From a virus, in IMG/VR virus record IMGVR_UViG_3300021963_007677, positions 1 to 38,663 of that record: a DNA stretch of 38,663 nucleotides; one strand, given 5' to 3'. Both the position numbers and the translations under genes were made by a program. Shown piece after piece: positions 17,996-36,924 of this stretch. Positions within the stretch are counted from its first letter, which is position 1, and every line of letters begins with the position of its first letter. The notes under the pieces are model-generated. The model was not told where the DNA came from, did not search any database, and saw nothing but the letters and a program-made list of their open reading frames with translations.

Positions 17996-20263
17996 ATGCC
18001 GACCGCAGCAATCGGTGACAAGGTTGTCAAAGTTCAGCACGTCAAAAAGCGTAGTGGCGATGTTGTTTCGTTTGATTTGAACCGTATCAAGAGCGCGATC
18101 TACCGCTGTCTTAATCTGGACTCGCAGCACGACGAGAAAAAGGCACAAAATGTCAGCGAGTTGATTAGCCATCAAGTCCTGAACCTGGCTCTGGCCAAGA
18201 CTGCGCCAATCGATGTTGAAGAAATTCAAAACATGGTTGAATCTCAGTTGATGGCTAACGGCTATTACGCTGAAGCCAAGCAGTACATCTTGTTTCGTGA
18301 AACCAAGCGAAAGCAACGTGAAGAAGCGCCAATTCCTGACGAAGTGCAGGCGGCTTTTGAGCAGAACAACAAATATTTCAGCAATGAAATCCAAAAGTTT
18401 CAGGCTTTGGACAAGTTTGCCAGATTCGATCACGAATTAGGCCGACGTGAGACTTGGCCTGAAACTGTCACCCGTGTGATCGGTTTTTTCAAAGCGCATT
18501 GCCAGAACAATCAGTTGGATGTGCTGGACACTGAATGGAAGTCGCTTGAAAACGGCCTTTTGCATTTGCAAGCTTCGCCGGCCATGCGTTGTGTTCAAAT
18601 GGCTGGCCCTGCGCTTGAGCGTTGTCATGTCGGCGTTTACAACTGCTCGTTTCAGTTCATCCAGAACACTACCGACTTGGCTGAAGAACTTTATGTGCTG
18701 ATGCAAGGCACCGGCGTCGGTTTTTCGGTCGAGTACGAGTACGCGGTTGAAAAGTTTCCCAGGGTCAAGCGGCAAAAGAAGCAAAGCGAGCTTCCGGTCC
18801 AAGTCATTGAAGACACGACCGAAGGCTGGTGTGACGCTTACAAAGCTGGTCTGAATGCCTGGTGGAACGGCGAAGATTTGAAATTCGATTACAGCAAAAT
18901 TCGCCAAGCTGGCGCACCTTTGAAGATCAAAGGTGGAAAAGCTTCTGGGCCTGGTCCGTTAAAGGACTTGCTGGAGTTTGCTCGTAAGCGTATTCTTGCA
19001 CGACAGGGGCGCTATCTCTCCAGTCTCGATCTTCACGACATCAATTGCTTTGCGCATCGTATTGTGCGCATGGGTGGCGTGAGACGAGCCAGCGGTATCA
19101 GTCTTTCCGACTTGCACGACCGCGAGATGCGGGATTGCAAGCAAGGCGAGTTCTGGACCACGAACGACCAGCGGAATCAGGCCAACAACTCTGCGGTGTA
19201 TAACGAGAAGCCTGATCCGCTGGTTTGGATGGAGGAATGGTTATCACTGGCCAAGTCAGGGTCTGGCGAACGCGGTATCTTCAACCGTGGAGCCCTGAAA
19301 GGCCAGTTCCCCAAGCGTCGCAAGCATACGGGCCATTTGTTTGGCACGAATCCTTGCGGCGAGATCATTCTGCGTCACAAGCAGTTTTGCAATTTGTCGA
19401 TTGCGGTCATCCGCCCTGAAGACACCTACGAGGAGATCGAGCGCAAGGTTGTCCTTGCCACGATCTGGGGCACGATTCAATCGACCATGACCAAGTTCAA
19501 GTACATTGGCGAAGAATGGAAAAAGAACAGCGAGGAAGAGCGCCTGCTGGGCGTGGACTTGCTGGGCTTCCTCGACCATCCTTTGTTTCAAGATGATGCT
19601 GAAGCGGCTGTTGTGCTGGACAAGCTTCGCAGCAAAGTCAACGAAGTGAACGCTTTGTGGGCTGACCGCTTTGGTATCAACCATTCGGCTGCCACCACTT
19701 GCATCAAGCCGTCTGGCGACTCTAGCGTCTTTTTCGGCACTGCTGCTGGTTTTAAAGGACATCACGGTCAGTTTTATGTTCGGCGTGTTCGGGCTAATGC
19801 CACTAACCCTGTCGCTCAGATGTTGCGTGACGAGGGTGTGCCTTGTCACAAGGACTACGACGGCAGCGGCCTTGTGCTTGAGTTCCCCATGGAATCTCCA
19901 AAGACTGGTGTGTTGTTGGAAAATCAAACCGCACTTAGTCAGCTTGAGAAGTGGAGAACGTTCAAAGTGCATTGGACTGAGCACAATCCTAGCGTCACGA
20001 TCTACGTGCGACCTGAAGAATGGCTTGAGGTTGGCAAGTGGGTTTACGACAACTGGGATATCGTGGGCGGGCTTAGCTTCTTGCCTTACGATGGCGGCAT
20101 CTATCACCTTGCTCCTTACGAGGCCATCAGCAAGGAAGACTACGATAATCGCGTGTCTACTTTCCCCACAATCAACTGGGCTAAGTTGATTCGTTACGAA
20201 AAGTCTGACATGACTGATCTTAACCAACAGTTTGCCTGCACCGGCGACAAGTGCGCAATCTGA
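17996..20263 (+). CDS. nrdJ: adenosylcobalamin-dependent class II ribonucleotide reductase
   Basis: A 755-aa monomeric class II enzyme of the RTPR type, reducing ribonucleotides to deoxyribonucleotides with a B12-derived radical. An ATP-cone allosteric domain occupies about 11-100 (VKKRSGDVVSFDLNRIKSAI). The active-site loop TNPCGEIIL lies near 451, with HKQFCNLSI next (second redox Cys) and RCHVGVYNCSF near 210 (first redox Cys). The C-terminal FACTGDKCAI supplies the mobile cysteine pair. All key residues are present and the length fits the family (~740 aa). It needs host cobalamin and works without oxygen dependence. AGGAG (17984-17988) precedes the start; a terminator ends the unit. Confidence 0.96.
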   Translation: MPTAAIGDKVVKVQHVKKRSGDVVSFDLNRIKSAIYRCLNLDSQHDEKKAQNVSELISHQVLNLALAKTAPIDVEEIQNMVESQLMANGYYAEAKQYILFRETKRKQREEAPIPDEVQAAFEQNNKYFSNEIQKFQALDKFARFDHELGRRETWPETVTRVIGFFKAHCQNNQLDVLDTEWKSLENGLLHLQASPAMRCVQMAGPALERCHVGVYNCSFQFIQNTTDLAEELYVLMQGTGVGFSVEYEYAVEKFPRVKRQKKQSELPVQVIEDTTEGWCDAYKAGLNAWWNGEDLKFDYSKIRQAGAPLKIKGGKASGPGPLKDLLEFARKRILARQGRYLSSLDLHDINCFAHRIVRMGGVRRASGISLSDLHDREMRDCKQGEFWTTNDQRNQANNSAVYNEKPDPLVWMEEWLSLAKSGSGERGIFNRGALKGQFPKRRKHTGHLFGTNPCGEIILRHKQFCNLSIAVIRPEDTYEEIERKVVLATIWGTIQSTMTKFKYIGEEWKKNSEEERLLGVDLLGFLDHPLFQDDAEAAVVLDKLRSKVNEVNALWADRFGINHSAATTCIKPSGDSSVFFGTAAGFKGHHGQFYVRRVRANATNPVAQMLRDEGVPCHKDYDGSGLVLEFPMESPKTGVLLENQTALSQLEKWRTFKVHWTEHNPSVTIYVRPEEWLEVGKWVYDNWDIVGGLSFLPYDGGIYHLAPYEAISKEDYDNRVSTFPTINWAKLIRYEKSDMTDLNQQFACTGDKCAI

Positions 20264-24320: not shown

Positions 24321-27300
24321 ATGCAGCCGCTCACGCCAAACTTGCTTGAGCCAGCAGCGCCATCGTTATTGACTCCGGCTCCGGCCCAACCAATCCCGAT
24401 GCCTGCGCTCCCGGTATCGTCCGACATGGACTACCGGGAGTTTGGCGATACTAACAAGACTCGTTCTCGCATTTACGAGAATGTGCTTAACGCTGCCCGT
24501 GGCATCGAGCCTATTTCAAACGAGCGGCACACGCTGCGTCTGGTGGATGTGGATTACCAGGACCCTGATCGAGTCAGCAAACGCGATCAGAAAGCCGCTA
24601 TTTTAAACGGGTTGACTCGCGGACGAAGATTGCGCGGCACCTGGGAGTTGGTTGACAACCTCAGCCAGCAGGTGATTGATCGAAAGAAATCCGTATTGGC
24701 GACCGTACCGCATCTCACCGAGCGTGGTACGTTTATCAACAACGGCACCGAATACACGCTGAAAAACCAGCAGCGTCTGCTTCCTGGCGTCTACACCCGT
24801 GTCCGTGACAACGGCGAAATTGAATCACACGCCAACATCATGCCAGGCAAAGGCGTGTCCCACCGCTACTTCCTCGACCCCGAGAAGGGCCAGTTTAAAA
24901 TCCGGATTGGACAGGGCACGGTAAGCTTGACCCCTCTGCTCAAGGCCATGGGTGCCACGCCTGAGCAATTGAAGGAAGTCTGGGGTAGAGATTTGTTTGT
25001 CAGCAATTTCAATGACGATGATGCTGCCGAATACAAAAAGCTAAAACAAAAGTTTTTAAACACCAGAGAACTACAAGGCGACGAGAACGAGCAACGTGCG
25101 GCGCTGGTTGCCAAGTTTGCCAAGATGGAGCTTGATCCGAACGTCACCAAGCGGACGCTGGGTAAGCCTCACAACGGTTTAACGTTAGACGCTGTGCTAG
25201 ACATCACCAAGAAGCTGGTGCAAGTCAGTAAGAACGAGGCTGAGCCCGACGATCGCGATGCGTTGACGTACCAGCAGTTCATGGGGCCGGAAGACTTGTT
25301 TTCCGAGCGATTGACTCGCGATAAGGGCGGCTTGCGCCGTCAGTTGCTGTGGAAGATGTCAGGCAAAGGCGATTTGAAAAGCATGCCGTCTTCTGCGCTT
25401 AACAAGCAGCTTCAAGCTGCCTTGATGACGAGCGGACTTGGCCAAGCCATCGAAGAGATCAATCCGGCAGAACTGTACGACAAGACCACGGCTGTTAGCC
25501 GGCTGGGCGAGGGCGGTATTCCGACCACCGACGCTATTCCCAAAGAAGCACGAAGTGTGCAGCCCAGTATGTTCGGATTTATTGATCCTTTGCGTACACC
25601 AGAGTCTGGCAAGGTAGGTGTTGACACTTATTTGGCCAGAGGTGCTCGCAAAGGCAAAGATGGCAAACTTTACACACAGTTTCGTGACGTTCGTACTGGC
25701 GAATTGATGTTCAAGACACCACAGGACGTGGCTGACATGACCATCGGTTTTCCTGGTAGCCAGGAAAGCGACAGTCCGCGTGTGGCAGCCATGCGTGGCG
25801 GCAAAATGCTGTACGTTCCGAAGTCGGAGATCGACTTGGAACTGCCGGCGATGGAAGAGGCGTTTAACCCGCTGTCTAACATCATTCCGATGAAGAGTCA
25901 GGTGAAAGGTCAGCGGTTGGTCATGGCCAGTCGTATGACCACGCAAGCTTTGCCTGTCGTTGACGCTGAAGCACCGCTGGTTCAGTCAGCCATACCCGGC
26001 ACAGACGGGCTCAAGAGCTACGAAGAGCAGTATGCCGGAGCCATGGGCACTTTGCGTGCGCCTCAGGGTGGCACCGTTGTTTCGGTGACACCTGAAGAGA
26101 TCAAGGTGCGTTACAACGACGGTACAGAAGATACGCACGAGCTCTACAACAATTTCCCATTCAACCGCAAAACGTTTATTCATCAAACGGCAGCAGTGCG
26201 GCCTGGCGATAAGTTTGGACCAGACCAGCTGCTGGCTCATTCCAACTTTACCGACAAAACCGGCGCAACAGCGCTGGGTAAAAACGCCAGGGTGGCGTAT
26301 GTGGCGTGGCAAGGTAAGAACTTTGAAGACGCTGTTGTTGTTTCAGAAAGTTTTGCAAAGAAGATGGCTTCTGAGCATATGTACCAGCATGAACTGGAGG
26401 TAAACGACAAGACGAAGATCGGCAAGAAGAATTTCATTCAGACTTTCCCCGGTAAGTTCAACAAGGAAACTCTGGCAAAGCTTGATGACAACGGAGTCAT
26501 CAAGCCTGGCACTGTGGTGAATTACGGCGACCCTTTAGTCTTAGGCACAACCCTGAAGGAAACCGCGTATAACAAGGTCCACAAAAAAGGCCAGTCGGGG
26601 TACAACGATGCAACAGTTACTTGGGATCACCACGACTCTGGCGTCGTCACCGATGTTGTCATGGGGAAAACGGGGCCGACTGTCGTTGTTAAAGCGACAT
26701 CAGCCATCAAAACCGGAGATAAGCTGTCAGGTCGTTACGGGGACAAAGGTGTTGTCGCTGACGTCATCCCAGACCGTGAAATGCCGCATTCCGCTGATGG
26801 TCAGCCCTTTGAAGTTTTGCTTAATCCCCTCGGCGTAATCACTAGAACCAATCCTGCGCAAATGGCCGAACTGTTGCTGGGAAAAATTGCCGCCAAGCGT
26901 GGTAAACCCATCAAAGTTCAAGATTTTGATTCCAAGAAAGACATGGCTGAATGGGTCATGCAAGAGTTGGGCAAAGAAGGTTTGTCTGATCTTGACGACA
27001 TTATTGACCCGTCTCGAGATCAGAAAATCAAAAGCGTTGCCACTGGCAACCGATTTTTCATGAAGTTACACCATACCGCCGAGTCCAAAGGACAAGGACG
27101 AGGCGGTGGTGCTTACACCATGGAAGATACGCCGGCTAAGGGTGGCTCAGAAGGCTCAAAGCGTATTGGTATGTTGGATACCAATGCTTTGCTATCTCAC
27201 GGTGCCACAGCAACTCTGCAAGACGTTAGCACAGTGCGTGGTCAGAAGAACGACCAGTATTGGTTACAGTTCATGTCGGGCTACAACCCGCAAGCTGCCA

Positions 27301-28778
27301 AAGTTCCGTTTGTTTACCAGAAATTCGTAAATCAGTTACGAGCCGCCGGCGTTAACGTCGTCAAGCAAGGCACTCAAACCAACATCATGGCCCTGACGGA
27401 TAAGGATGTTGAGGAGTTAGCCGGTGATCGTGAGTTGACGAGTGCTGAAGGTGTGGACTGGAACAAGCAGCTGAAAGAGCTACCAAACGGCTTGTTTGAC
27501 AAAGCCAAGACGGGCGGACACGGCGGTAACCGTTGGAGCTACATCAAGCTGCACGAGCCGATGCCCAATCCAGTGATGGAAGAGCCTGTCAGGCGAATCC
27601 TTGGCCTGACGCAGAAGCAATTCCAAGGCGTTTTAGCTGGAACTGAGAACCTGTCAAAATATGGGACAGGGCCTACCGCTATCAAAAAAGCTTTATCCGG
27701 CATGAACTTAGAAGCGGAAATTGAAAAAACCAGGAACATAATCGCAGCTGGTCGAGCGTCAGAGCGCGATGCGGCTGTGCGAAAACTTGGCTACTTGAAA
27801 AGTGCCCAGAAGCTTGGGCTTAAGCCTGAGGATTACGTCCTAACCAAAGTTCCTGTCTTACCGCCAATGTTTAGGCCGGTTAGTCTGATGAGCAACGATA
27901 TGCCGCTCATCAACGACGCAAACTACCTTTACAAAGAACTTTTCGAGGCAAATCAAAACCTCAAGAGTATCCAGGCCGAGTTAGGTGCTGACGGTTCGGG
28001 GCAAGAGCGGCTCGCCACTTACAACGCTTTCAAGGCAGTCACTGGTCTTGGTGATCCGATCAGCCAGAAAACTCGTGAGAAGAATGTCAAAGGCATTCTT
28101 CAATCTGTGTTTGGTTCCAGTCCAAAGTTTGGCACGTTACAGCGCAAACTAATCTCTACCACGGTAGATAACGTAGGCCGTGCTGTGATCACGCCAAATC
28201 CGGATTTAGACATGGATTCAGTCGGCTTGCCGGAAGAGAAAGCGTTTAAAGCGTACGAGAAGTTCGTTACCAGACGATTGGTGCGCCAAGGCATGTCTTT
28301 GCGGGCGGCACGCGAGCAAGTTACTGAGAAGACCGACTTGGCTCGTAGAATCTTGCTGGAAGAAATGGATCATCGTCCGGTTTACATCAGCCGTGCGCCA
28401 GTTCTCCACAAGTTCGGCATCATGGCAATGAAACCGAGACTAACCAAGGGCGACACGCTGCAAGTCAGTCCGCTGATCGTAAAAGGCTTCAATGCCGACT
28501 TTGACGGCGATGCCATGAACTATCACGTGCCGAGCACCGAAAAAGCCCGGCAAGAGGCTTTGGAAAGACTTTTGCCTAGCCGTAACCTGTTCAGTTTGTC
28601 AGACTTTAAGTCAGTGATGCACGCACCTGCCAACGAATATGTTGGCGGTCTGTATCATGCAACTAGCTCTGCTAGCGAACGTCCTAAAAAAATATTCAGG
28701 ACTGTGCAGGACATGCGACGGGCGTACGAGCGTGGCGATATCTCTATCGAAGATAAGGTCCAAATCCTAGAATCTTGA
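24321..28778 (+). CDS. RNA polymerase beta fused to N-terminal half of beta'
   Basis: A 1485-aa chain. The beta part shows TVPHLTERGTFINNGTEYTL (~128-147), RLLPGVYTR, GKNFEDAVVVSESFAKKM (~661), GDKLSGRYGDKGVV (~799-812, nucleotide/hybrid site) and KGGSEGSKRIGMLDTNALLS (~940). It then runs directly into beta' without a stop: RWSYIKLHEPMPNP (~1071), VPVLPPMFRPVSL, LISTTVDNVGRAVI and RPVYISRAPVLHKFGI. The catalytic Mg-binding loop NADFDGD is at 1391-1397. It stops soon after, before the bridge helix. The beta N-terminal lobe is shortened and beta' has no N-terminal zinc ribbon. The missing half of beta' is the 30332 gene. All three catalytic Asp residues are present, so it should be active. No alpha, omega or sigma is seen nearby. 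Confidence 0.95.
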   Translation: MQPLTPNLLEPAAPSLLTPAPAQPIPMPALPVSSDMDYREFGDTNKTRSRIYENVLNAARGIEPISNERHTLRLVDVDYQDPDRVSKRDQKAAILNGLTRGRRLRGTWELVDNLSQQVIDRKKSVLATVPHLTERGTFINNGTEYTLKNQQRLLPGVYTRVRDNGEIESHANIMPGKGVSHRYFLDPEKGQFKIRIGQGTVSLTPLLKAMGATPEQLKEVWGRDLFVSNFNDDDAAEYKKLKQKFLNTRELQGDENEQRAALVAKFAKMELDPNVTKRTLGKPHNGLTLDAVLDITKKLVQVSKNEAEPDDRDALTYQQFMGPEDLFSERLTRDKGGLRRQLLWKMSGKGDLKSMPSSALNKQLQAALMTSGLGQAIEEINPAELYDKTTAVSRLGEGGIPTTDAIPKEARSVQPSMFGFIDPLRTPESGKVGVDTYLARGARKGKDGKLYTQFRDVRTGELMFKTPQDVADMTIGFPGSQESDSPRVAAMRGGKMLYVPKSEIDLELPAMEEAFNPLSNIIPMKSQVKGQRLVMASRMTTQALPVVDAEAPLVQSAIPGTDGLKSYEEQYAGAMGTLRAPQGGTVVSVTPEEIKVRYNDGTEDTHELYNNFPFNRKTFIHQTAAVRPGDKFGPDQLLAHSNFTDKTGATALGKNARVAYVAWQGKNFEDAVVVSESFAKKMASEHMYQHELEVNDKTKIGKKNFIQTFPGKFNKETLAKLDDNGVIKPGTVVNYGDPLVLGTTLKETAYNKVHKKGQSGYNDATVTWDHHDSGVVTDVVMGKTGPTVVVKATSAIKTGDKLSGRYGDKGVVADVIPDREMPHSADGQPFEVLLNPLGVITRTNPAQMAELLLGKIAAKRGKPIKVQDFDSKKDMAEWVMQELGKEGLSDLDDIIDPSRDQKIKSVATGNRFFMKLHHTAESKGQGRGGGAYTMEDTPAKGGSEGSKRIGMLDTNALLSHGATATLQDVSTVRGQKNDQYWLQFMSGYNPQAAKVPFVYQKFVNQLRAAGVNVVKQGTQTNIMALTDKDVEELAGDRELTSAEGVDWNKQLKELPNGLFDKAKTGGHGGNRWSYIKLHEPMPNPVMEEPVRRILGLTQKQFQGVLAGTENLSKYGTGPTAIKKALSGMNLEAEIEKTRNIIAAGRASERDAAVRKLGYLKSAQKLGLKPEDYVLTKVPVLPPMFRPVSLMSNDMPLINDANYLYKELFEANQNLKSIQAELGADGSGQERLATYNAFKAVTGLGDPISQKTREKNVKGILQSVFGSSPKFGTLQRKLISTTVDNVGRAVITPNPDLDMDSVGLPEEKAFKAYEKFVTRRLVRQGMSLRAAREQVTEKTDLARRILLEEMDHRPVYISRAPVLHKFGIMAMKPRLTKGDTLQVSPLIVKGFNADFDGDAMNYHVPSTEKARQEALERLLPSRNLFSLSDFKSVMHAPANEYVGGLYHATSSASERPKKIFRTVQDMRRAYERGDISIEDKVQILES

Positions 28779-28802
28779 CTAGGTATCAAAGGAGTTTCTC
28801 AC

Positions 28803-29477
28803 ATGGCGATTAATACTGAGTTGCTGCGTCAGGCTCGGCAGTCTGTTGCACAGCTGAACAAGTTTGCATTCGTGGCTGCTGGTGATCCTGCCATGGGTGC
28901 TCCTCCTCCTGGCGGTGACCCTGCTGCTGCGGGTGGTGCTCCTATGGACCCTGCCATGGCTGGCGGTGCTCCTCCTCCTGGCGGTGACCCGATGGCTGGC
29001 GGTGGTGGCGATCCCATGGCCGCTATTATGCCGATGATTCAGCAGGCAGTTCAGTCTGCCATGGCTGCAAATGGCGGCGGAGCCGGTGGTGCTCAAGGTG
29101 CCGGTCCTGGGTTGAAGCCCAAGATTGACGTCAATGTCGAGATCATGCAGATCAAGAAAATGCTTGCCAAGATTGTGGACGCCATGGGCATTCACATCCC
29201 GGCACAAGACATGGTTGCCACGCCTGAAGATTTGAATCAAATCGCTCAGGGTGGCGCAGGCTATGCCGCTGCCACGCCAGATAACGCTGGTCAAGGTGGC
29301 GGTGGACTCGGGCAAATATCCCCGATTGAGCCTATGAAAGCTGCGGCAGCTGAGTGGGAAAGCGGCGTGGCGTTCACGCCGCCTTCGGAATTGTCTTTGA
29401 ATCGTGCTCATGAAACGACCCGCAATAACGCTAACCTTGCCGCAGCTTTGGTTATGCGCAAACGGGTTGGAGCATAA
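28803..29477 (+). CDS. Pro/Gly/Ala-rich low-complexity protein between the RNAP genes
   Basis: ATG 28803 is behind AAAGGAG (28788-28794). The 224-aa product starts with a helix, LLRQARQSVAQLNKFAFVAA. A disordered region with APPPGGDP and PMAGG repeats (~30-75) follows, encoded partly by a 26-nt direct repeat. A short helical core (KIDVNVEIMQIKKMLAKIVD, ~111-130) and an acidic tail complete it. No family recognised. Placed between two polymerase halves, it may be a virion protein or a linker or partner of the polymerase. LNKFAF fits the K-x-A motif. Confidence 0.65.
   Translation: MAINTELLRQARQSVAQLNKFAFVAAGDPAMGAPPPGGDPAAAGGAPMDPAMAGGAPPPGGDPMAGGGGDPMAAIMPMIQQAVQSAMAANGGGAGGAQGAGPGLKPKIDVNVEIMQIKKMLAKIVDAMGIHIPAQDMVATPEDLNQIAQGGAGYAAATPDNAGQGGGGLGQISPIEPMKAAAAEWESGVAFTPPSELSLNRAHETTRNNANLAAALVMRKRVGA
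28896..28990 (+). repeat. 26-nt direct repeat in the Pro/Gly-rich gene
   Basis: The 26-nt unit at 28896-28921 recurs exactly at 28965-28990, 69 nt (23 codons) apart. It encodes GAPPPGGDP. Exact nucleotide identity suggests recent duplication. Confidence 0.9.
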
Positions 29478-29485
29478 GGTGATTA

Positions 29486-29710
29486 ATGTTTTTTGTTGAG
29501 ATTGTTGAGACAATCGGAAAACCTCCTATTAGGTTGGAGGCTTCTCAGGTTGTTATCAGAATGGCTAACGGCACTCCTGTCAGTGTCGCAGCCATGTTTG
29601 GTGGTCCTCACAGTGTCCTGGTTTCGCATTGTGAGGACCCCGGTTTCAACTCAAACTTACAGAAGCTCGGTATCAACGAAACCGTAATATCATCGAGAAT
29701 GAAGGTTTAA
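29486..29710 (+). CDS. small hypothetical protein (74 aa)
   Basis: ATG 29486 is preceded by TAAGGTGA, a good ribosome site. The 74-aa product is beta-rich with TPVSVAAMFGGPHSVLVSHC and EDPGFNSNLQKLGINETVI. The GGPxSxxVSHCxDPxFN pattern recalls small phage hypothetical proteins. Its stop is 1 nt before the next start. Function unknown; the conserved setting between the RNAP genes is of interest. Confidence 0.65.
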   Translation: MFFVEIVETIGKPPIRLEASQVVIRMANGTPVSVAAMFGGPHSVLVSHCEDPGFNSNLQKLGINETVISSRMKV

Positions 29711-29711
29711 C

Positions 29712-30308
29712 ATGGCTGACTTCAACAGAACTGCGAACAGTGCTTACTATGCCTCCAGGCAAGAGCTCAACATTGCCGGGACAAGGGAAGGTAGCAAAAC
29801 GCCGAAAATTGTTCCCAGCTACCAGCACAAGTCGTCTGACGCAAATACTTCAGCAAACAAGTATTATGCTTCAGCAGCGGCAAAGCCCGGCACGCCTAAA
29901 GCAGCCAAGTTGAAAGCCTCCAAGCACGTTCAAGTAATTTGCAGCAGCAAGTCTGTGGTGCAGTCGATTCTTGAAGAACTTAGCTCGGGAGCGACTCGCA
30001 TCACAGTTAAAGGCTCTGCCGAAGAATTGAAACAAGCCAAACTGCATGTTGATTTGGCTGTAGGGCGAAATACGTTGACTCGTGGTCAAGCCGATCAGGT
30101 TAATTACGCGCTCAAAGTTGATCCGGTGCCAATTTCGGTTCCTGAAGTTAAAGTCGAAACTGTTGAAGAAATCAAACCTGTAGAGATTCCAGAAGAACCG
30201 GAAGCCAGCATCAAGGCAGAAGAAATAACAGAAGAAGACGTCGCAGCTGCTTTCGGGGTAAAGCCTGACGAAGGTGACGACGACGGCGACGATGACGACG
30301 ATCTGTAA
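29712..30308 (+). CDS. hypothetical protein with very acidic C-terminus
   Basis: A 198-aa protein. The N-terminal ~60 residues are polar and Ala/Ser/Tyr-rich. A compact alpha/beta region (~70-130: HVQVICSSKSVVQSILEEL, ATRITVKGSAEELKQAKLHV) follows. The last 60 residues are acidic, ending in a run of Asp (GDDDGDDDDDL). Acidic tails can mimic DNA or bind basic proteins, so a partner of RNA polymerase or DNA-packaging proteins is conceivable. No family recognised. The next gene, beta' C-terminal half, begins 24 nt later. Confidence 0.65.
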   Translation: MADFNRTANSAYYASRQELNIAGTREGSKTPKIVPSYQHKSSDANTSANKYYASAAAKPGTPKAAKLKASKHVQVICSSKSVVQSILEELSSGATRITVKGSAEELKQAKLHVDLAVGRNTLTRGQADQVNYALKVDPVPISVPEVKVETVEEIKPVEIPEEPEASIKAEEITEEDVAAAFGVKPDEGDDDGDDDDDL

Positions 30309-30331: not shown

Positions 30332-33300
30332 ATGATTTCGGCTACTGTCGGTCAAATGCTTGTTAACGACGCTCTTCCCGAAGACATGCGAGACTACAAT
30401 CGCGTGTTGGATGGGAAGAGCGTTAAAGCTTTGTTGCAACAAGTCGCAAAGAAATACCCTGAGCGGTATCGAGAAATATCGTTCAATCTAAATCAGGTCG
30501 GCAGACGCTCAGCACAAGATCAGGGCGGTATGTCTTTCGGCATTCGCCATCTGCGTCGCAGCAAAGTTGCCAACGAAGTCCGACAAAGGATTCAGGGCGA
30601 GCTTCGCAACATCTTGGCTGACGATTCGCTGACAGATCAGCAGCGTACGGACAAAATTATTCGAGTGGTGGGGCGTGAAAGCTCGCCACAGCAGAAAGCC
30701 GTTTTGGAAGAAGCGATTAAAGAAAAGAATCCTTTAGCTTTACAAGTGTTGTCAGGCAGTCGTGGCAAGCCGATGAATTTAGCCAGTCTACTGGCTGCCG
30801 ACATGCTTTATTCGGATCACAGGGACGAGGTTATCCCCATCCCTGTGTTAAGAAGCTACAGCGAAGGTTTGTCCCCTGAAGAATATTGGGCCGGCACCTA
30901 TGGTGCTCGACGTGGCATCATTGCTACCAAATTCGCCACGCAAGAAGCCGGTTTCTTGTCCAAGCAGCTGAACCAGGCTGGTCACAGGCTTGTGGTCATG
31001 GGCGAGGACGGCGAAGAAGAAGGACCCGATGCCCCAGTGCGTGGCATGATCGTCGATACCGACGATATGGACAACGAAGGCTCGTTGCTGGCGCGGGACA
31101 TCGGTCCTTACAAGAAGAACACGCCGCTCACGCCAAAGATTCTCAAGCACCTTTCAAGACTCGGCAAAAGCCGGATTTTAGTGCGTTCACCTTTGGTTGG
31201 CGGCTCACCAGAAGGCGGAGTTTACGCCCGCGACGTCGGAGTTCGTGAAAACGGAACTCTACCTGGGCGTGGCGAACAAGTCGGTTTGCAGGCTGCTCAA
31301 GCTTTGAGCGAACCTATCAGCCAAGGTCAGCTTTCTGCCAAACACTCAGGCGGTGTTGCTGGGCAAGAAAAAGCCGTAGGTGGTTTTCAGTACATCAACC
31401 AACTCATTCAAACGCCAAAACGCATGCAGGGCGGCGCAGCCCATGCCACTTTGGACGGAACCGTGCAGCGGGTTGAGCCTGCTCCGGCTGGTGGCTATTA
31501 CGTCACTATCAACGACGAAAAGCATTACGTAGGCGAAGGCTACGACCTAAAAGTTAAAAAAGGCGACGAAGTTGAAGCTGGAGACATGATTAGTGACGGC
31601 ATTCCCAACCCAGCCATAATTACGCAGTACAAAGGTGTTGGCGAAGGCCGCCGTTACTTTGTTAACGAGTTTCGCAAGGCCATGGCCAGCAGCGGCATGA
31701 TGGGCCATCGGCGCAATATTGAGTTGCTGGCTCGTGGTTTGATTAATCACGTCAAGTTGACGGAAGAAACCGACGACCATGTTCCTGACGACATCATTCC
31801 GTACTCGACATTAGAACACACGTATAAACCGCGAGAAGGGCACGAGAGGCTGGCTCCCAAGAAAGCTTTGGGCCAGTACCTGGAAAAACCTGTGCTGCAT
31901 TACACAATTGGCACTAAGATTCGTCCGTCTATGCTCAAAGACTTTGACGAATTTGGCGTCAACGAGATACCCGTACATCGCAACCCGCCGCCATTTGAGC
32001 CGCACATGGTTCGCGGCATGTATCAGTTGCAGCATGATCCAGACTGGATGACTCAGATGTATGGGTCTGGTCTCAAGAAAAGCTTGTTAGAGTCTGTGGC
32101 ACGCGGCGCAAAAAGCGAAGAGCGCGGCACCAGCTTTATTCCAAGCCTGGCAACGGGTACTGACTTTGGCGATGTGCCTAACCGCGCAGTCATTCAACCT
32201 AAGCCAGGTTATTCGTTACCGAAAGTTGATATTCCTGAAGAAGAGCCTGAGCAGCCGAAGCCAATCAAACAAGCTCCTTCTGGTTCAATGTTCTTTGGCG
32301 GCAAATTTAAAGTTGGTTCTGTCAAGAAAGCCGATTCGTCCGCGCCAACCAACACCAAAGCACCGGTGACTTCGGCTCCGGCTACACCCAGCGCTTCGCC
32401 AATACCTGCACCTAAAGCGCAAACTCAAGCGGCTTCTCCTGCCCCTTCATCGGCTGGTCAAACGTATCAACCGATGCAGACGCCCAGCCTGCAAGATTTT
32501 TCGAGGGATTACAATCTTATATCTGGCGGTGGCGCTGGCCCAACGCGAAGATTACCTTCTTCAAGGATGAACGCACCTAGCGTGCGTAATGCACCATCAG
32601 GCGGCTTGTCTCCAAACATCATGCCGCAACAGCAGCCGCAGACACCGGAAATGCAGCCACAGTATCAGCTGCCTTCTCCTGATTATTCCACTAATCCTCG
32701 ACAACCTAACTACAGCATTCCGTCTGGCGGCTTGCCAAACCCGAGCTCGATGCCGCAGCCTAACGCACAGCCAATACCTGCGCCTCAACCTACACCAACA
32801 CCGGTAGACCCGAATTCTGAAGCTGGTCAAGGCAACAGTATGAACCCGTTTAGCGGTAGCGGTACTGCGCGTGGCCTCTTAGGCATGGGTCTTGAGTATG
32901 CAGGCGGTTTGGCCGGTGCGGGTGGTGCTGCTGCTGGCGGCGCTGCTGCTGGCGGCGCTGCTGCGGGAACATCCGGCGGGATTCTTGGCGGTATTGCGCG
33001 AGCCGGTCGTAGTTTTGTTGCTCCTGGCGCAGGTCTTGGTGCTGGGGCTGGGTTTTTGCCAGCCGTAGGTGGTATGACGCTTGTCAACGCTGGAACCGAA
33101 ATGCTTGATGCCGTCGGTCTACTGCCTGAGTGGGCTGGTGGCGATGGTATGGGTAATTTTGGTTGGAATCAAAGCGGTTTCAATCAAAATATTCAAAACA
33201 GCAGTTACTTGAGCGGCGTAGGTCAAACGTTTATGAACCCGCTGAAAGGCGTCACAAACTTGGCGCAAGGTGCAGGAGAAGCGATATCTGCCGCAGGTGG

Positions 33301-33958
33301 AAAAGCTCGTGACTTAGTCACTTGGTCTGATACAAGAAGTCGTGCGGTCGCCAACGATAAAGCTAAAGTTCAAGAAATGGAAGCAAATCGACAGAAACAA
33401 CTGGAAGCTCAGCGTCAACAACTAGAGCAAGCCTCAAACGCCGGCGGTATGTCGCCACAGCAACGCCAGCAAGTTGCCAATCAAGCAACAGAAGTTCAAA
33501 ATCAAATTGAAGATTCCAAAGCGCAAGCTGCGGCTATGGAAGACGAGACCGCTAATTGGCAAATGGGTAACCGAAGTTGGGCTGGAGGCGGCTACCAATT
33601 CCGCGATAATGCGTCTAAGAGCTTGCAAAACGTCAATCAACAAATTGCTAACTTGCAGCAGCAGGGGATTACCACGCCAGAGCAGCAGGCTCAGCTTGAA
33701 ACACTAAAACGACAGCAGTCTGATTACAATCAGATCGTCAACTTGTATAACAAGGAAGTCGGCTACTTCGGAACTGGCGACTTCAGTAACTACATGCGAA
33801 ACTCGGTTAAAACTAAGAAGACAAAGATGGTCGAACTGAGCCAGCAGATTCGCAATGCCATGGCTCAAAGAGATACAGCTAAGGCACAACAGCTAAAAGC
33901 TGAATGGGAGCATCTAAACAATACGTTGCAAACGTATAGGTCGTGGGCCGGGCAATAG
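30332..33958 (+). CDS. RNA polymerase beta' C-terminal half with long virion-like tail
   Basis: A 1208-aa chain. Residues ~1-615 are the missing half of beta': SATVGQMLVNDALPEDM at the start, bridge helix SGSRGKPMNLASLLAADML (~140-160), trigger-loop region EEYWAGTYGARRGIIATKFA (~182-201), and GEQVGLQAAQALSEPISQGQ (~314-333). The bacterial zinc-site cysteines are replaced (SPLVGGSPEGGVYARDVG). The rest is not RNAP: a Pro/Ser/Thr/Gln-rich linker (~640-850), a Gly/Ala-rich hydrophobic segment (~860-935) and a Gln-rich coiled coil (~1010-1208; QKQLEAQRQQLEQ). Such a tail resembles virion-internal proteins nearby and suggests packaging of the enzyme. The ribosome site is weak (AGGG). Confidence 0.93.
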   Translation: MISATVGQMLVNDALPEDMRDYNRVLDGKSVKALLQQVAKKYPERYREISFNLNQVGRRSAQDQGGMSFGIRHLRRSKVANEVRQRIQGELRNILADDSLTDQQRTDKIIRVVGRESSPQQKAVLEEAIKEKNPLALQVLSGSRGKPMNLASLLAADMLYSDHRDEVIPIPVLRSYSEGLSPEEYWAGTYGARRGIIATKFATQEAGFLSKQLNQAGHRLVVMGEDGEEEGPDAPVRGMIVDTDDMDNEGSLLARDIGPYKKNTPLTPKILKHLSRLGKSRILVRSPLVGGSPEGGVYARDVGVRENGTLPGRGEQVGLQAAQALSEPISQGQLSAKHSGGVAGQEKAVGGFQYINQLIQTPKRMQGGAAHATLDGTVQRVEPAPAGGYYVTINDEKHYVGEGYDLKVKKGDEVEAGDMISDGIPNPAIITQYKGVGEGRRYFVNEFRKAMASSGMMGHRRNIELLARGLINHVKLTEETDDHVPDDIIPYSTLEHTYKPREGHERLAPKKALGQYLEKPVLHYTIGTKIRPSMLKDFDEFGVNEIPVHRNPPPFEPHMVRGMYQLQHDPDWMTQMYGSGLKKSLLESVARGAKSEERGTSFIPSLATGTDFGDVPNRAVIQPKPGYSLPKVDIPEEEPEQPKPIKQAPSGSMFFGGKFKVGSVKKADSSAPTNTKAPVTSAPATPSASPIPAPKAQTQAASPAPSSAGQTYQPMQTPSLQDFSRDYNLISGGGAGPTRRLPSSRMNAPSVRNAPSGGLSPNIMPQQQPQTPEMQPQYQLPSPDYSTNPRQPNYSIPSGGLPNPSSMPQPNAQPIPAPQPTPTPVDPNSEAGQGNSMNPFSGSGTARGLLGMGLEYAGGLAGAGGAAAGGAAAGGAAAGTSGGILGGIARAGRSFVAPGAGLGAGAGFLPAVGGMTLVNAGTEMLDAVGLLPEWAGGDGMGNFGWNQSGFNQNIQNSSYLSGVGQTFMNPLKGVTNLAQGAGEAISAAGGKARDLVTWSDTRSRAVANDKAKVQEMEANRQKQLEAQRQQLEQASNAGGMSPQQRQQVANQATEVQNQIEDSKAQAAAMEDETANWQMGNRSWAGGGYQFRDNASKSLQNVNQQIANLQQQGITTPEQQAQLETLKRQQSDYNQIVNLYNKEVGYFGTGDFSNYMRNSVKTKKTKMVELSQQIRNAMAQRDTAKAQQLKAEWEHLNNTLQTYRSWAGQ
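32924..32968 (+). repeat. three 15-nt tandem repeats encoding GGAAA-type units
   Basis: Three tandem units, GGTGCTGCTGCTGGC, GGCGCTGCTGCTGGC and GGCGCTGCTGCGGGA, encode GAAAG in series inside the hydrophobic Gly/Ala segment of the 30332 product. The number of copies may vary between relatives. Confidence 0.85.
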
Positions 33959-34338: not shown

Positions 34339-36924
34339 ATGGAAGGAAACATGAAAAACAGCTTAGTTAAAGTTGCTAACCTTGGCGGTAGCGGCGGTGA
34401 GACCGAATTTGAGCAGGCTTTTTCCAGCCTGGCCTACGCTTACTTGCGAGACAAGGCTCCTCGGTTGTTGGACTACATGCTGGGTTTTCAGCTAGTTGAC
34501 CGCAACGAAGACAATACCAAGGCCATGGGTGTCTTCGGTTTTCAGATCGACAAGCAGTGGCTCTATGCTCCTGTGTTCTTCCTGAACGGCGACCTAAAAG
34601 GTCACGAACTGCTGTACATGAAGAACAACGATTCTTTCGTTCCACTAAAAGAGAACTGGATCAACTACATTATGAGCCGCAAGCCTCACGTGCTTGGCGA
34701 GCCTTCTGCTCGCAAGTTGCGTGAGCTTGGCGGCATTTATCCTGACGTTCGTACGCTTTCTATCCCACCGTCCATTGGTGGTGGCAAGCGTGCCAGCGAT
34801 AACAGCTGGTTTAAAGACGTGTTGCCTATGGTGGCAGCGTTTAAAACCAAGATGGCCAACTCTCTGTACCGTGGTGCAGGTGATCGCAAACTGAACCAGG
34901 CGGCAGTTGTTGCCGATCCGTTTGGAGCCGCCCTAGCCAAGCAAGCTTCAATTCTGGATTTTAACGTCGTCATGCCGCAGAGCCTGGAACTGCTCAAGCT
35001 GGCTCACGCCATCTCGGAGCGGTATCCGACCATCAAGCAAGGCATGCAAAAGTTCTACGGCGTTGACTGCTTCTCTCGTTGGGGTGCCGAACTGAAGGCC
35101 AACACTGAGAAGTCCGCCGAAAGCATCATGCCGGTCAAGCAAGCCAAGGCCAAGCCTTACATGCCTGGCAACTTGCTGATTCCAACTGCACCGCCTGCCG
35201 GTCCTGTCGATCACGTCAAGGAAGGCAAGCTCCGTCTGTACGTCTCTGAGTTTGTCATCGAGAATCGCGTGCCGTTCGGTGAACGAGCCAACGAGAACGC
35301 CGCAGACGTCAAAGCTGACGAAGGTCCTGCTTCGGTAGACAGCGCCAACCTGAACACCGACGAGCGTGAGAAGCTGTTGCGTGAGCGCTCGCTGATCAGC
35401 GATGGACGCAGCGACGACGAGACTAGCAAGGCTTATAAGGTCCAGGTTGAGGCCAAGCTGACAAACCCCAGCGAAACTGCCCTCTACCGCGTGCTTGAGA
35501 AACCGGGCAAGTTCAGCAAGATGCTGGTTGCCATGCACGGCAGTAGCAACCGTGGTCGCGAACCGATGGTAACGCTCGTCCGGCTTGACGACAGCGGTTC
35601 AAAGAAAGAGTGGCTCAATACTTACGCCACTAACGTCTTTGCCGATCAAATTTGCGAGAAAGACGAATGGCAGGAGTGGTTTGACAGCTTGGGTAGCGCT
35701 GATTCTTTGCAAGAAGGCGGCGAGTATGTAGGTATCGACCAGTACGGCTCTTCCACCGCTCCTTTTCACGTGCAGTCCAACTATGGCGAAGGTCGCTATC
35801 GTGTGGACTTCCGCACCAACATCAACTTTGACGAGAACAGGCCAAGCACTGCGCCGCGTCTGGCAAAGCGCTATGACCCGTTCACCGAAGAAAGCTACCA
35901 CATGCCGAGCCCGTACGGCGCAATGCTGTACATCAACAAAGAAGGCGATCGCGGCACTAAGTTGCGGGCTATCGGAGGTGAACTGCGCGTTCCTTCCTCG
36001 TTCAAGTTCTTGAAGTTGAGCGACCCGCAGAAGCCTAAACCCGGCGAATTGATGTGTTCCAGCAACTACGACAGCCGCAGCGACATGCCGCCGATCCAGC
36101 TTGGCAAGATTGACGACATTCAGCTGCTGTTCCACGAGAAAACAGCTGGACTCAAGCTTCACAACAACGGCACAGACGTTTATCTGGATTCTGCGCTTGG
36201 GCAAACTCGCTTAAGCAAGCAAGCTGCCGTTTGGCATCTTGTGAGCGTCCATGGTTTGCGTGAAAAGGCGGCGCGTGAAATTTTGGCGACAGCCGAACAC
36301 AAGGGTCACGCAAGCTACCGAATTGCTTATGCTCCCGGTTATGGCACGCAGAAATCAGCTGCTCCAAACGCCAGCATATTGGCTCACGGACCTAACGCTC
36401 CTATCTATGACGATTACGGTGATGAGCGTAGCGTTGAACAATACGGGCCAAGTACGGCTGTGCCGACTCAGTTCACGTCATCGGCAGCTTATCGTCTGAG
36501 CGGCTTGACTGCCGATCAGACTGACCCTGGCGTATGGGACCCGTGGCAGAACTTTGAAGCGCGAGATTTTCAGAAGAACTTCCAGGTTGCTCAGCAGGCG
36601 GCCATGGGCGGACAGAAGGAAGTCTTTGATACTTCGATGATTTCTGGCATGCTTAAGTCAGTGCGGCAAGATTCTTTGGTTGAGCGCCATCTCGCTCCGC
36701 TGGTTGAAGCACTGGATTCGCTTGGCCGGTTGCTGATGAATTTCTACTGGCACCAAGAAGAGTTTGAAGATCGTTACGGCAAGAGCGATTTGCCAGAGTT
36801 GGAAGACAGCTTGCGCAACGCTTTTGAATCGCTTGGCGATATCACACTCTTCTTGAAAGAGAAGACAATAGAATCGCCTTTTGACCAAGGCGATGTTAAC
36901 CTGGAAGAAACCGCAAGGAACTAA
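34339..36924 (+). CDS. large protein of unknown function, probable virion component (861 aa)
   Basis: ATG 34339 or ATG 34351 may be used; AAGGA lies between them, too near the second and after the first. The 861-aa product matches no family I recognise. The start has LVKVANLGGSGGETEFEQA and FSSLAYAYLRDKAPRLLDYM. LYAPVFFLNGDLKGHELLYM and WINYIMSRKPHVLG look globular. Residues ~300-360 are charged and perhaps disordered. The middle is beta-rich, and the C-terminal 60 residues are helical (LVEALDSLGRLLMNFYWHQE). K-x-A motifs recur at least six times (LAKQAS, TEKSAE, HEKTAG, LSKQAA, TQKSAA, LVKVAN). Size and position suggest an abundant or internal virion protein; portal or tail-tube functions cannot be shown. 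Confidence 0.7.
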   Translation: MEGNMKNSLVKVANLGGSGGETEFEQAFSSLAYAYLRDKAPRLLDYMLGFQLVDRNEDNTKAMGVFGFQIDKQWLYAPVFFLNGDLKGHELLYMKNNDSFVPLKENWINYIMSRKPHVLGEPSARKLRELGGIYPDVRTLSIPPSIGGGKRASDNSWFKDVLPMVAAFKTKMANSLYRGAGDRKLNQAAVVADPFGAALAKQASILDFNVVMPQSLELLKLAHAISERYPTIKQGMQKFYGVDCFSRWGAELKANTEKSAESIMPVKQAKAKPYMPGNLLIPTAPPAGPVDHVKEGKLRLYVSEFVIENRVPFGERANENAADVKADEGPASVDSANLNTDEREKLLRERSLISDGRSDDETSKAYKVQVEAKLTNPSETALYRVLEKPGKFSKMLVAMHGSSNRGREPMVTLVRLDDSGSKKEWLNTYATNVFADQICEKDEWQEWFDSLGSADSLQEGGEYVGIDQYGSSTAPFHVQSNYGEGRYRVDFRTNINFDENRPSTAPRLAKRYDPFTEESYHMPSPYGAMLYINKEGDRGTKLRAIGGELRVPSSFKFLKLSDPQKPKPGELMCSSNYDSRSDMPPIQLGKIDDIQLLFHEKTAGLKLHNNGTDVYLDSALGQTRLSKQAAVWHLVSVHGLREKAAREILATAEHKGHASYRIAYAPGYGTQKSAAPNASILAHGPNAPIYDDYGDERSVEQYGPSTAVPTQFTSSAAYRLSGLTADQTDPGVWDPWQNFEARDFQKNFQVAQQAAMGGQKEVFDTSMISGMLKSVRQDSLVERHLAPLVEALDSLGRLLMNFYWHQEEFEDRYGKSDLPELEDSLRNAFESLGDITLFLKEKTIESPFDQGDVNLEETARN

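Follow-up and report, generated by a model that had tools for sequence, protein, structure and literature searches.

Organization of the split RNA polymerase locus

The stretch of DNA analyzed here (the window; IMG/VR virus record IMGVR_UViG_3300021963_007677, 38,663 bases) is probably a phage genome fragment, and its RNA polymerase (RNAP) is encoded by two genes on the plus strand. The first, RNAP_N (24321..28778), encodes a single chain that joins beta to the N-terminal half of beta-prime, matches the Pfam domains Rpb2_6 (E 2e-50) and Rpb1_2 (E 4e-25), and shares approximately 30–32% identity with Arash gp206 and its D69 counterpart. The second, RNAP_C (30332..33958), encodes the C-terminal half of beta-prime (approximately residues 1–627) followed by an extension, and matches Rpb1_5 (E 7e-18); we take RNAP_C to be the half that carries the trigger loop. 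The RNAP_N translation contains NADFDGD, presumably the catalytic-type DFDGD motif of beta-prime, and this motif together with the three domains identifies a two-barrel multisubunit phage-type RNAP. Because RNAP_N matches Rpb2_6 and Rpb1_2 and RNAP_C matches Rpb1_5, the split is assigned to the interior of beta-prime and not to the beta/beta-prime boundary. Among relatives, the RNAP_N matches are approximately 1 kb longer than usual in L052, L055–L059, L062, L063, L066, L070, and L081, a surplus that an intein or comparable in-frame insertion would explain, and RNAP_N lies in many pieces in the L099 record.

The RNAP_C extension comprises approximately 580 residues (approximately 628–1208), is rich in Pro/Gly/Ala and Gln, and is absent from the 654-aa homologue in L005. 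Treatment of the extension as a single family was rejected: only those of the window, L006, L007, L008, and partly L009 align mutually, and no similarity was detected between the window extension and the long extensions of L041, L070, L118, L126, and L178. Sequence comparison thus marks the extension as lineage-specific. Downstream of RNAP_C lies a gene for an 861-aa protein (34339..36924, plus strand) with remote homology to Arash gp218 (hhalign E 3e-6, probability 88%) and to D69_266 (E 2.2e-9, probability 96%); a gp218-like gene also follows RNAP_C in Arash and D69. A gene located before the RNAP module, at 17996–20263, encodes a large ribonucleotide reductase (PHROG 367, E 1e-129). A promoter and terminator scan gave 10 versus 6.4 and 18 versus 13.0 expected, and nothing decisive.

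Three open reading frames (ORFs) with ATG starts, pA (28803..29477, 224 aa), pB (29486..29710, 74 aa), and pC (29712..30308, 198 aa), lie between the RNAP halves on the same strand with the tight spacing originally predicted: 24 nt between RNAP_N and pA, 8 nt between pA and pB, 1 nt between pB and pC, and 23 nt between pC and RNAP_C. Shine–Dalgarno-like stretches were recognized by eye upstream of pA (AAAGGAG) and pB (AAGGTGA). The predicted Pro/Gly-rich composition of pA and beta-rich nature of pB are likewise borne out, the latter in its structural model. The longest competing ORF (minus strand, 28779–29513, 244 aa) is very likely spurious because the antisense frames of pA each hold at least two stops in all five relatives checked.

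Conservation of pA and pB and the variable slot of pC

A scan with RNAP_N yielded five close relatives, IMG/VR contigs of 157–205 kb with 73–83% RNAP_N identity, and the order pA-pB-pC is kept in all five. By full-length alignment, identity to the window is 57–74% for pA, 58–81% for pB, which shows the highest conservation in most close-relative pairs, and 32–44% for pC, the least conserved. The dN/dS of the window versus L009 was undefined for most genes owing to saturated dS, and closer pairs were taken; for pairs with unsaturated dS, values of 0.03–0.09 for pA and 0.03–0.11 for pB, compared with 0.015–0.05 for RNAP_C, place both small genes under strong purifying selection, and the single pair available for pC (L006/L008) gave 0.36. 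The kept order in the five relatives and the selection on pA and pB mean that the three ORFs go beyond chance.

Wider sampling comprised the best 80 of 142 loci from a scan with alignment A1, which included Arash and D69, the best 80 of 176 loci from a scan with RNAP_C (A7), and 4 further loci from a scan of genome contigs. With iterated profiles, pA and pB were each detected in 72 of the 84 sources examined (the window, three phages, and 80 loci). For the synteny tally, 115 sources were taken, one per contig (the window, L002–L084, and 31 additional loci). Of these, 20 lacked one RNAP end or showed none in the expected order and were excluded, 18 as truncated, rearranged, or with the other RNAP half elsewhere and two (D69 and D181) through the profile-start filter; the latter two were re-added by hand to give 97 contigs with both RNAP halves in order. 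Between the halves, 88 carry both pA and pB, 4 only pB, 1 only pA, and 4 neither, such that pA is found in 89/97 and pB in 92/97. When RNAP_C sequences were clustered, both genes were kept in 60/68 clusters at 90%, 25/33 at 70%, and 8/15 at 55% identity, with the mutually alike L183 and L184, whose translation at that place is too short, tallied as two partial clusters. Neither gene lies between the halves in Arash, D69, D181, and the Dependentiae metagenome-assembled genome (MAG) contig L193, and the RNAP_C of all four is at most 35% identical to that of the window; at 38% identity or more, every contig has at least one of the genes, as judged among the 25 lowest-identity contigs listed. Relatives with an intact RNAP and these genes absent or elsewhere were the counterexample named in advance, and it applies in part, to these four distant RNAPs.

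The pair itself is tighter than its flanks. The pA-pB gap exceeds 60 nt in 1 of 88 contigs, with a median overlap of 11 nt, whereas the RNAP_N-pA junction exceeds 130 nt in 26/89 and the pB-RNAP_C junction exceeds 80 nt in 26/92, including the pC clade of the window. Ten genes inserted at these junctions were scanned against Pfam. They encode SNF2-type helicase domains (L021:14416-15906, L024:14417-17902, and L027:4313-5794), exonuclease-like RNase_H_2 domains (L031 and L168), an Fe-S biosynthesis domain (L168), an RF-1 domain (L062), and a Gly-zipper with a sub-cut-off match (L026), and the inserts of L037 and L118 gave no Pfam match. An SNF2-type helicase related to Arash gp217 was found in 4 of the 8 family genomes searched, and additionally in Arash, though not in D69. 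Its gene immediately follows RNAP_N in some relatives and is located elsewhere in others, whereas in Arash it immediately follows RNAP_C; we regard the helicase by analogy as a possible RapA-like partner. As a control, the gp218-like gene was followed and is located downstream of RNAP_C in 90/100 contigs, 74 of which have it no more than 500 nt away, so synteny is high in general as well.

Rearranged loci are also informative. In the 69-kb contig G002 (the source of L073), RNAP_N ends at approximately 22,448 and RNAP_C starts at approximately 56,180, approximately 32 kb apart, and ORFs resembling pA (profile E 1e-7) and pB (E 5e-5) lie shortly before RNAP_C, one 281-aa gene separating pB from RNAP_C; the pA-like ORF was assigned from the iterated profile and from its MDPAM repeats, the broader A6 profile having missed it. 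In L195, an alphaproteobacterial MAG contig, the pA-pB pair is inverted as a unit and still lies between the halves. In L193, RNAP_N is in pieces, and the sole pB-like match is weak (E 0.004) and far away. Profile searches with A6 and A5 found no pA or pB in the whole Arash, D69, and D181 records. Arash gp215 and D69 genes 262 and 263 were considered as positional orthologues and rejected, showing no resemblance to pA/pB by eye, and hhalign probabilities of the pA/pB profiles stayed at 20% or below against Arash gp210 and gp213 and the two D69 genes. The MAGs of L195, L194, L193, and L192 are labelled Alphaproteobacteria, Methylococcales, Dependentiae, and Flavobacteriales, respectively, labels that are possible host hints or binning errors.

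The third gene behaves differently. pC is found in the window, the five close relatives, and approximately four to five cousins, and comprises two YY motifs approximately 31–56 residues apart, a small alpha/beta domain (approximately residues 69–135), and an acidic tail. Its model has an overall pLDDT of 63 with a low-confidence N-terminus and tail, and the best structural match (IspD, Z 5.9, rmsd 2.9, 57 aligned residues), obtained with this low-confidence model, is within the range of common arrangements; Pfam and PHROG each returned one weak match (E 0.04) for the window protein. Alignment-alignment comparison links pC to the same-slot genes of L041, L068, L070, and L180 (96%, E 4e-9), comparisons with single cousin sequences give 22–84% versus <1% for shuffled controls, and the same-slot gene of L178 shows no link (0.4%). 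In other contigs, the slot holds an exonuclease, an Fe-S protein, or an RF-1-domain protein, and pC is accordingly best described, from these comparisons, as a lineage-specific occupant of a variable slot. The proposal that its Asp-rich tail mimics nucleic acid is weak, because the long Asp run, itself a GAC-type repeat, is unique to the window. The close relatives end in DDSDD, DDSDE, or DDSDA, and the last 20 residues carry a net charge of −9 in the window and of −2 to −8 in the five close relatives, whereas among five cousins they are basic in three (+4 to +5) and acidic in two (−5 to −6); a conserved long acidic C-terminus was thus not found.

Features of the pA and pB proteins

pA is variable in length and repeat-rich. 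A K-x-A motif marks its N-terminal stretch; variable (GG-APP-MDPAM) repeats, a conserved stretch judged by eye to be amphipathic, and an Ala-rich C-terminal end make up the rest, and its DNA contains a tandem repeat of approximately 36 bp. The K-x-A motif lies near the N-terminus in nearly all pA members, and an initial count suggested enrichment in neighbour proteins; a shared N-terminal packaging tag was rejected, as the excess over 36 families is not significant (Wilcoxon p 0.19). pB was modelled by AlphaFold2 with a pLDDT of 90.5 as five strands and one helix. Foldseek found no match for this fold at E 0.001 in BFVD and the PDB, and the best VIA-align match, to FHA domains, is weak (Z 2.6, rmsd 4.3, 53 aligned residues).

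Sequence databases yielded little for either protein. The window pA and pB matched nothing in Pfam and PHROG at E 1; 27 pA members and 41 pB members gave no PHROG match at E 0.01; 2 of the 41 pB members had single, mutually unrelated Pfam matches; and an NCBIfam search of eight proteins gave none. Against PDB sequences, the pA profile A6 had no match better than E 0.16, and the best match of the pB profile A5 (E 0.17) is unconvincing. A literature search, for which subscription journals and preprints were mostly beyond reach, found, among the papers listed, none on genes of the pA/pB type.

Known phage RNAPs and the proposed role of pA and pB

In Arash (gp206/gp216), D69, and D181, beta and the N-terminal part of beta-prime likewise form one chain and the C-terminal part of beta-prime a second, encoded on the same strand, although other genes stand between the halves, where pA, pB, and pC were not detected; the RNAP_N counterpart of D181 is interrupted by further ORFs including a homing endonuclease, and the likeness of D148 is known from the match list alone. 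In the Arash proteomic account, gp206 leads all virion proteins in detection (3516 spectra), followed through the module by gp216 (1210), gp217, the helicase (1148), and gp218 (1149), and the authors caution that highly expressed proteins could also be carried into the preparation (PMC10585845). The window RNAP is probably a virion RNAP by homology to these abundant proteins gp206 and gp216. The homology of its halves to the Arash virion RNAP also makes co-packaging of pA and pB plausible, although no homologue of either was detected in Arash. Between the Arash halves, gp210 (111 spectra) and gp213 (143) were detected, and the other genes are absent from the table (PMC10585845).

The phiKZ and AR9 RNAPs resemble the window family in a beta-prime split after the DPBB region and in lacking alpha and omega, and differ in that their beta/beta-prime comes as at least four polypeptides in the nvRNAP and five in the vRNAP, compared with two chains in the window; their nvRNAP has an extra subunit that is neither beta nor beta-prime. 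The P23-45 virion RNAP is a single chain fused to the tape measure. Shared with the window are the presence of both catalytic barrels in one chain and a long non-RNAP extension on an RNAP chain, the latter a resemblance that is architectural only; the window differs in having the trigger-loop half of beta-prime on its own chain and an extension that is lineage-specific. Multisubunit RNAPs of phages function without alpha and omega. According to a review, it had not been established by then what keeps the split beta/beta-prime chains of nvRNAPs together, and purification of a vRNAP had yet to be achieved (PMC7598289).

Alpha (PF01000) was found in 0 and omega (PF01192) in 0 of 23 genomes over the cut-off, with one sub-threshold omega match, in records that are possibly incomplete and outside of which lies the window's own genome; these counts, and those for sigma, apply to the records as they stand. 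Sigma region 2 exceeds the Pfam cut-off in 4/23: two of these, Arash and D69, are without pA and pB, and the other two have them (2/21 family genomes), whereas region 4-like matches occur in 16/23 at E ≤0.01, four over the cut-off and several in frames of 250–320 aa. As for a reciprocal absence of pA/pB and sigma, region 2 is rare and weak region 4 matches in sigma-sized frames are widespread; divergent sigma factors may be present in the family genomes. No sigma domain was found by Pfam hmmscan in the window pA, pB, and pC at E 1 or in the 41 pB members at E 0.01.

The original prediction proposed all three genes as assembly partners, specificity factors, or co-packaged proteins and suggested synteny in relatives as a check. 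Its support is now firmer for pA and pB, which keep their position between the halves, both together in 88/97 contigs, and weaker for pC, which is restricted to the close relatives and cousins. Our tentative preference, held at slightly less than even confidence, is that pA and pB serve a packaged two-chain RNAP as dedicated accessory proteins, a reading drawn from gene order, purifying selection, homology, and the lack of recognizable alpha and omega in the genomes searched and strengthened because the genes follow RNAP_C when the halves are 32 kb apart and because the inverted pair stays between the halves. It is weakened because the late module is generally syntenic, because pB has no fold match, and because most Arash genes between the halves are undetected in virions. 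Equally tentatively, and as part of the same reading, pC would be not a core RNAP partner but a later addition in one lineage. pA and pB are not essential to every RNAP of this type, given that the Dependentiae contig and the phages Arash, D69, and D181 encode the RNAP with neither gene between its halves.

A serious but rather unlikely competitor is that pA and pB are ordinary virion proteins of the inner head or ejection apparatus, encoded in a shared late operon and never binding RNAP. The persistence of the gp218-like gene points to synteny of the whole module, structural linkers are often repeat-rich and variable in length like pA, and neighbouring slots hold proteins without obvious link to RNAP; this account is countered by the attachment of the pair to RNAP_C when RNAP_N is distant, by its inversion in place, and by its far rarer separation than that of the flanks from the RNAP genes. 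Less probable again is a stronger form of partnership, in which pA and pB would be obligate new subunits replacing alpha, omega, and perhaps sigma, pB fastening the two beta-prime halves and pA anchoring the holoenzyme in the capsid and leaving with it on ejection; the operon between the halves would then supply a large group of uncultivated phages with a ready-made, injectable apparatus for transcription. It is quite improbable that pB, alone or with pA, acts as a promoter-specificity or initiation factor analogous to AR9 gp226 or phiKZ gp68. The scarcity of sigma region 2 and the use of a fifth, non-obvious subunit by jumbo-phage nvRNAPs (PMC7598289, PMC8287921) are compatible with such a factor; the widespread region 4-like matches, the size of pB, which at 74 aa is far smaller than gp68, and its best match of only E 0.17 among solved structures argue against one. 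gp68 and gp226 did not emerge as relatives of pA or pB in the profile and fold comparisons described above. Passing insertions (morons or remains of homing elements) at an RNAP break point are very improbable for the three genes together, since pA and pB are nearly universal down to approximately 38% RNAP identity and under strong purifying selection, even though the junctions accept unrelated inserts (SNF2-type helicase, 3′-5′ exonuclease, Fe-S, and RF-1-domain proteins) and pC, with its dN/dS in one pair, fits such an origin.

If pA and pB are accessory partners, RNAP_N and RNAP_C would be produced late from one operon of virion genes, and pB, whose translation in the most frequent arrangement immediately precedes that of RNAP_C, is predicted to bind RNAP and may help to join or stabilize the two parts of beta-prime where alpha and omega are missing. 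The predicted amphipathic stretch and flexible Pro/Gly/Met spacer of pA might allow it to work together with pB and to tether RNAP inside the capsid, so that the enzyme is packaged and injected. With only two chains and a pair of very small, conserved candidate partners, this virion-type RNAP would provide a simple system for studies on assembly, packaging, and injection.
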